Below, piece by piece: positions 2 to 1,411 of a stretch of 33,721 nucleotides of DNA. The number at the start of each line of letters is the position of its first letter. Position 1 is the stretch's first letter. The stretch spans positions 1 through 33,721 of the forward strand of contig CACOGA010000013.1 in NCBI GenBank assembly GCA_902626585.1, written 5' to 3'. A program made the translations under genes and the position numbers. The notes under the pieces are model-generated. The model was not told where the DNA came from, made no database searches, and saw only the letters and a program-made list of their open reading frames with translations. This DNA comes from an uncultured Bacteroidota bacterium. Its GTDB lineage: Bacteria > Bacteroidota > Bacteroidia > Flavobacteriales > Flavobacteriaceae.

Positions 2-268
2 ATAAAACACCTTTCTAAAAAGGAATTGTATGTTAGAGATTGTTATGCGTGTGCATCTAAAAAAAACAGGCTGAATTTAAGAACAATATGTGAATATCCA
101 TGGAGTGATATTTTTGCACATAATATGTTCTTGAGGCCTTTGAAAGATGAAAAATTTAATATTGAGTGGACCGTTATTTCAGCACCAAATTTCCAAGCAA
201 ATCCCAAACAAGATGGTATTGATAATAAGAATTTTTCAATAATAAATTTTTCAAAAAAAATTTACTAA
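2..268 (+). pseudogene. pckA: Internal fragment of ATP-dependent phosphoenolpyruvate carboxykinase, broken at its 3' side
   Basis: The frame is open from the left edge, so the true start lies outside the window (the TTG at 26 is internal). The peptide reads like the N-terminal half of PckA: a YVRDCYACA segment, then EYPWSDIFAHNMFLRP, then APNFQANPKQDG and FSIINFSKKI, in the family order. PckA converts oxaloacetate and ATP to PEP in the cytoplasm. Homologues continue from the KKI segment into a GGT..GE.KKG stretch and then the P-loop. Here the similarity stops and TAA follows at 266-268. Everything C-terminal, including the ATP-binding P-loop and metal ligands, is missing, so the product cannot be active. 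The break coincides with an A8 tract where saccharopine dehydrogenase sequence begins in another frame. Family identity is from memory of PckA sequences and is strong; whether the break is biological is not known. Confidence 0.8.
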
Positions 269-279
269 CCGCGTCATAT

Positions 280-1305
280 GTGAGCGACGAAATGAGAGAT
301 CTAAATAAAGACGTAATTGATAACAATCTCATCTTTTTGAATGAAATGGGATTAGACCCAGGAATAGACCATATGAGTGCGAAAAAAATAATTGACAATT
401 TATTAGATGATAATAATAAAATAACATCTTTCAAGTCATATACAGGTGGACTAATAGCGCCTGTGAGTGATAATAATTCTTGGAATTATAAGTTCACTTG
501 GAATCCAAGAAATGTTGTTTTAGCTGGTCAAGGTACTCCAGCAAAATATATTGAAAATCAGAAATATAAATACCTTCCATACAATCGGTTGTTTGAAAAT
601 ACTGAAAGAATTAAAATCAAAGATTATGGAGATTTTGAGGTTTATCCTAATAGAGACTCTCTAAAATATCGGGAACTTTATGGTTTAAAAGATATAGGGA
701 CAATGATTAGGGGGACAATAAGAAAAGTTGGATTTCCAAAATCGTGGAATTTATTGGTAAGACTTGGCTTAACAGACGATAGTTTTAAAATTTCAAATTC
801 AAATGGTATGACGTATAGGGATTTCCTAAATTGTTTTCTTCCTTACCATAAATCTTTATCTGTTGAGAATAAAACAAAAAATCTATTAGGAATTAACGAA
901 GAGGGCTCCGATTGGATTAAACTACAAGAAATAGAATTATTTAGTAACACAAAAAAAATTCCATTGGATAATGCAACTCCAGCCCAAATTTTAGAATATA
1001 TACTAAAGGAGCATTGGAAGTTAGAACATAATGATAAAGATATGATCGTAATGTATCACGAGTTTAAATACACAAATAGCAGTGGTACAAACAATAAAAT
1101 CATTTCTACAATGGGTTGTATTGGTGAAGACAGCATCTATACAGCTATGGCAAAAACTGTTGGTTTACCAATAGCCATTGCTTGTCTTTTGATTTTGAAT
1201 AAAAAAATAAATTTATTAGGCGTTAAAACCCCAATTGATAAAGAAATTTATAAACCAATTCTGCAAGAACTTGAAAATTTTGGAATATCCTTTAATGAGA
1301 AATGA
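280..1305 (+). CDS. Saccharopine dehydrogenase family protein, N-terminally truncated
   Basis: Members of this family act on saccharopine in lysine metabolism, using an N-terminal NAD(P)-binding Rossmann domain. The visible part matches the family from just after that fold: a VSDEMRDL segment, GLDPGIDHMSA, the YTGGLIAP segment, NYKFTWNPRNVVLAGQG, then NRDSLKYR, TYRDFLN, DMIVMYHEF and AMAKTVGLPIAIA, ending with a typical FGISFNEK tail. The start given is a GTG. The same frame is open back to 229 and encodes further family-like residues (KKNLLTASY), so the GTG is internal to the ancestral gene. About 100 residues with the GxGxxG dinucleotide site are missing. The upstream sequence is instead a piece of pckA in a different frame. 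As it stands the enzyme should not bind cofactor. It is a pseudogene if the junction is real, or an intact gene cut by a chimeric assembly. Confidence 0.85.
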   Translation: MSDEMRDLNKDVIDNNLIFLNEMGLDPGIDHMSAKKIIDNLLDDNNKITSFKSYTGGLIAPVSDNNSWNYKFTWNPRNVVLAGQGTPAKYIENQKYKYLPYNRLFENTERIKIKDYGDFEVYPNRDSLKYRELYGLKDIGTMIRGTIRKVGFPKSWNLLVRLGLTDDSFKISNSNGMTYRDFLNCFLPYHKSLSVENKTKNLLGINEEGSDWIKLQEIELFSNTKKIPLDNATPAQILEYILKEHWKLEHNDKDMIVMYHEFKYTNSSGTNNKIISTMGCIGEDSIYTAMAKTVGLPIAIACLLILNKKINLLGVKTPIDKEIYKPILQELENFGISFNEK

Positions 1306-1364
1306 TATTGAAAGTTAGAAGGCATAGTGTTGTCTGCTTTAGACAACATACACATCATATTTAA

Positions 1365-1392
1365 TTTGATTAATTTTAATTGAATATCTTTG
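1365..1392 (+). promoter_or_regulatory. Bacteroidota-type promoter for the LVIVD lipoprotein gene
   Basis: A -33-like TTTG at 1365-1368 and a -7 element TATCTTTG at 1385-1392 (consensus TAnnTTTG) are separated by 16 bases. The -7 box lies 19 bases before the ATG at 1412, which implies a very short leader. The fit is by eye; the spacer is slightly shorter than usual. Confidence 0.55.
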
Positions 1393-1411
1393 TTCCCCAT
1401 TTGATTAAATT

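Follow-up and report, generated by a model that had tools for sequence, protein, structure and literature searches.

Chimeric joins made during MDA are the closest described counterpart of the locus reported here. In the portion of the study of Lasken and Stockwell (2007; PMC1855051) used here, 475 of the 495 chimeras obtained from a single MDA-amplified E. coli cell were analysed. Inverted joins accounted for 406 of the 475, of which 337 linked segments separated by less than 10 kb; direct joins below 10 kb numbered 11. Of the close inverted chimeras, 93.5% showed complementary bases, which reached up to 21 bp overall. In the model given there, a 3' end that has been displaced re-anneals to another displaced strand close by, which has the opposite polarity. 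The parts of other reports considered here describe contig-end trimming of 100 and 200 bp in two single-cell studies (PMC5519541, PMC7490370), and the discarding of contigs shorter than 2,000 bp from single-cell assemblies (PMC10224968). The genes concerned here belong to the ATP-dependent phosphoenolpyruvate carboxykinase family (PF01293) and the saccharopine dehydrogenase family (PF03435 and PF16653).

We analysed a window of 33,721 nucleotides, which is the entire contig C13 in the + orientation, window base 1 being contig base 1. The window has a GC content of 30% and contains no N. It belongs to a draft genome (G000) of 35 contigs and 1.49 Mb, with a completeness of 86.61% and a contamination of 0. 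Approximately 253 bases from the contig terminus, a piece of pckA is joined to a piece of a saccharopine dehydrogenase family gene.

Window 2–268 forms a single open frame and matches positions 80–167 of the 465 positions of the PEPCK_ATP profile (PF01293, E 1.2e-21), whereas a whole relative covers positions 2–464. The piece corresponds to residues 101–188 of the 536-aa PckA of G015, with 85% identity. It thus encodes a stretch of the family protein as the relatives do, but it is a fragment only, short of the complete domain of a working PEP carboxykinase. The second piece matches the full Sacchrp_dh_C profile (PF16653, 1–265 of 265, E 5.7e-75), and this C-terminal domain with its stop is shared with the family. 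It aligns to residues 92–442 of the 442-aa protein of G016 (81% identical). The first 91 residues, in contrast, are absent from the window contig, and most of the NADP-binding domain PF03435, which spans residues 4–116 in the G016 protein, is missing. A working saccharopine dehydrogenase has both domains, as the relative does, whereas the window piece has the C-terminal one only. The preliminary description had reported a pckA fragment meeting a headless dehydrogenase that starts some 100 residues into the protein, and the profile and protein comparisons bear this out, the head lacking here being close to that estimate.

Table 1. Coordinates of the features at the join
Feature	Window position	Strand	Basis
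pckA piece, inverted; residues ~101–187 of 536; start, catalytic P-loop part and end absent	2..262	+	Pfam PF01293; comparison with G015; orientation in relatives
Junction AAAAAAAATT, microhomology	253..262	+	Comparison with 13 relatives
Saccharopine dehydrogenase family gene lacking residues 1–91, with intact C-terminal domain and stop	253..1305	+	PF16653; comparison with G016

The break point was delimited by blastn against 14 loci of 13 relatives. Similarity to pckA stops at window 259–262, and similarity to the dehydrogenase begins at 243–283, mostly at 250–253. Both similarities therefore overlap in ten bases of an A/T tract, AAAAAAAATT, which are compatible with either source gene; the length of this overlap is judged from the relatives, as the unbroken sequences of the strain itself are absent from the assembly. 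Past the break point, PckA of the relatives goes on as SKKIIIIGGTGYTGEIKKG, in agreement with the continuation that had been predicted for its homologues. It had also been proposed that both genes encode consecutive lysines at the tract. By our reading, Lys-Lys occurs there in pckA of 13/13 relatives and in the dehydrogenase of 8/13.

The A8 tract was considered as a statistically special site, and this idea was rejected. When the dehydrogenase gene (1,329 nt) was compared with the flipped 1,750 nt on the pckA side in four relatives, each locus contained 124–149 exact inverted matches of at least 8 nt. Complementarity at the junction is thus weak evidence by itself, because such matches are common in this locus.

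Each piece was searched in 40 genomes, comprising G000, 20 other genomes of the same genus and 19 from outside it. Both genes were found in 16 of the 20 same-genus genomes, and in all 16 they lie on a single contig, adjacent and divergent. The remaining four (G003, G004, G017 and G019) gave no pckA match. Among these, G004 carries, at the start of a contig, the C-terminal part of the dehydrogenase; the dehydrogenase search gave only weak matches (27–28% identity) in G003 and G017, and none in G019. Outside the genus, both pieces were matched in 12 of the 19 genomes; the genes are divergent within ~3 kb in nine (G021, G023, G025, G027, G029, G030, G031, G034 and G037) and non-adjacent in three (G026, G036 and G038). 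A DNA search of the 21 genus genomes, including G000, recovered the same 16 with both genes and found the joined order in no other genome. One of the 16, G006, is a metagenome bin (MED649), and the divergent order is thus not confined to single-cell data. In another relative, G008, the dehydrogenase match (C17, 17400–18449) contains one TAA.

Since both pieces lie on the + strand in the window and the genes are divergent in relatives, the pckA piece is inverted; this source order is inferred from the relatives and not from the strain itself. The positions corresponding to the two break points are 944–946 bp apart in 12 of the 13 relatives measured among the 16, and 982 bp apart in G001.

These features resemble the inverted MDA chimera with an intervening deletion, as far as it is described in the portion of PMC1855051 used here. 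One segment is inverted in the window as well, with the co-oriented pieces set against the divergent order of all 16 same-genus genomes. The segments are also separated by less than 10 kb in the source order, as in most of the published inverted cases. The junction, too, falls at a short sequence that both sides share, and its ~10 nt, as judged from relatives, lie within the 2–21 nt of the known chimeras. The published chimeras were seen in reads, whereas the join in the window is seen in an assembled contig.

We conclude that the join, near a contig end, is most likely an inverted (fold-back) chimera formed in vitro, as phi29 polymerase makes in MDA. The genome was presumably amplified from a single cell, and the true genome most likely carries intact, divergent pckA and dehydrogenase genes like those of the relatives. 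The preliminary description had left a choice between a deletion and a chimeric assembly or amplified DNA. Our comparison favours the chimera, specifically a local inverted one, over the deletion, which would need an inversion in addition. Sites picked at random in a 1.5-Mb genome would seldom be ~945 bp apart, so the event was local. The closeness of the sites points to an event within one molecule and argues against contamination. Moreover, the k-mers usual in assembly are longer than an overlap of ~10 nt, which suggests that the chimeric molecule preceded assembly.

The proposed course is as follows. The nascent strand, extending leftward across the dehydrogenase gene, would be displaced on reaching the A/T tract around codon 92. 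Re-annealing of its 3' end would follow ~945 bp off, where the matching tract lies around pckA codon 187, on the opposite strand, itself displaced. Synthesis would then run back the opposite way, joining the flipped pckA codons 101–187 to the dehydrogenase gene. The contig stops ~250 bp further on, probably since only the chimera reaches into a poorly amplified region.

With regard to the origin of the DNA, two same-genus genomes, G008 and G013, carry the isolate names AG-337-I16 and AG-470-C08, which we take to be single-cell names. AG-337-I16 is recorded as a MAG, as is G006, and a single-cell origin is therefore not a given for the genus. Metagenome bins are often without a full-length 16S gene. 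A full-length 16S match is present inside contig C3, which we regard as a hint of single-cell origin; the same search was also positive in 9/14 control genomes. When the contig ends were compared with themselves, no exact inverted match of at least 20 nt was found in the 62 readable ends out of 70, the other eight being read as N; the lack of a second fold-back counts against the chimera. This comparison is blind to the join in the window, since the contig ends short of the sequence expected twice.

Other contig ends of the assembly were observed in the same analysis. The starts of C1 and C24 (1–99) and those of C15 and C22 (1–92) are near-identical over their first 92–99 bases (96–98%) and then diverge, resembling unresolved repeats or assembly branch points. 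In addition, positions 2614–2939 of the 3.2-kb contig C31 and the last 611 bases of C6 have 326 bp in common with 97% identity, possibly a repeat that broke the assembly.

The main rival is a real local inversion, which we consider unlikely and clearly less probable than the chimera. In this case, a segment of ~945 bp between the A/T tracts, containing pckA codons 1–187, the intergenic region and dehydrogenase codons 1–91, would have been turned round by way of a short inverted repeat, with a break in each gene. The junction in the window has the form expected at one end of this inversion, and short inverted matches abound between the two genes in relatives. However, none of the 16 other genomes of the genus in which both genes occur shows the inversion, two conserved genes would have to be broken at once through a repeat of ~10 nt, and the inversion would have to lie, by chance, ~253 bp from the end of a contig. 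A related idea, that the ~945-bp segment spanning the shared pckA/dehydrogenase promoter region is naturally invertible through the A/T-tract repeats, is scarcely plausible; if true, part of the population would have both genes switched off by the inversion.

An artefact of another kind than MDA, such as a library-preparation fold-back, an erroneous join by the assembler or strains mixed in a metagenome bin, is very improbable. The status of G006 as a metagenome bin speaks for it. On the other hand, 10 nt of overlap seems little for a join based on k-mers, most MDA chimeras in the portion of PMC1855051 considered have this geometry, and the 16S match inside C3, with the control result given above, also speaks against it.

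A simple deletion, by which both genes were fused and destroyed, was the biological reading offered at first. Although the pieces are co-oriented in the window, a deletion cannot flip a piece, and the divergent order in 16/16 same-genus genomes with both genes therefore contradicts this reading, which we hold to be barely credible. The absence of intact copies from the assembly would be in its favour. Beyond the window piece, the genome contains no second pckA match and no second copy of the dehydrogenase, contig C11 holding only a 25%-identical relative. Intact copies elsewhere had been named as a sign of a chimera. That none was found nevertheless says little, given that the flank is missing as well.

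The missing flank was sought with the DNA and the neighbours found on the pckA side in relatives. When 9.3 kb of this DNA was used as the query, the window piece was the sole match among the 40 of 226 candidates scored. The neighbouring HemD (family assigned by Pfam HEM4) gave no match in the genome, in a search that had no positive control. In two relatives that were read, tyrS lies ~4 kb past pckA; it was assigned in G016 by TIGR00234 (392 bits). It was found in 14/14 control genomes. In the present genome no tyrS match exceeded the cut-off, one match reaching 25.9 bits against a cut-off of 113.8 bits. These absences hold for the readable part of the assembly; four small contigs of ~11 kb in total are read as N.

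A cell without tyrosyl-tRNA synthetase is implausible, so the contig end most likely marks an assembly gap. The locus probably enters this gap, and the destruction of genes is therefore not inferable from it. The claim that two metabolic genes had been destroyed thus falls away, since the rest of pckA is absent together with its neighbours, tyrS included, as at a gap, and the same absence weighs against a simple deletion. A 73% match to G015 (C1, ~100.2–100.8 kb) extends to the last base of contig C10, among the 40 of 185 candidates scored. The assembly may resume at C10, after a gap of ~27 kb in G015 coordinates. We regard this placement as tentative, because the stretch is self-similar, and C6 (65%) and C1 (80% over 141 bp) of the present assembly also match parts of this query.

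Taken at face value, the join would falsely suggest the loss of pckA and of a saccharopine dehydrogenase family gene. As a probable artefact, it is most likely uninformative on gene loss in the organism. Short inverted tails at the ends of draft contigs can mimic gene fusions or double gene losses and call for caution, and a comparison of gene orientation with relatives exposes them.

On the other side of the dehydrogenase, the window differs from its relatives in a further respect. In the relatives, the dehydrogenase is followed by a regulator of the Lrp/AsnC type (Pfam PF01037 and PF13404). In the window (1295–1411), the flanks of this position are separated by 37–108 bp, compared with 433–505 bp in the relatives, as measured at the 9 of 14 loci where both flanks were matched. 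The best match to the regulator elsewhere in the genome is 37% identical and located on C8. Short remnants of the start and the end of the regulator gene, recognised by eye, are left in the window, and the site looks like a genuine, decayed internal deletion.
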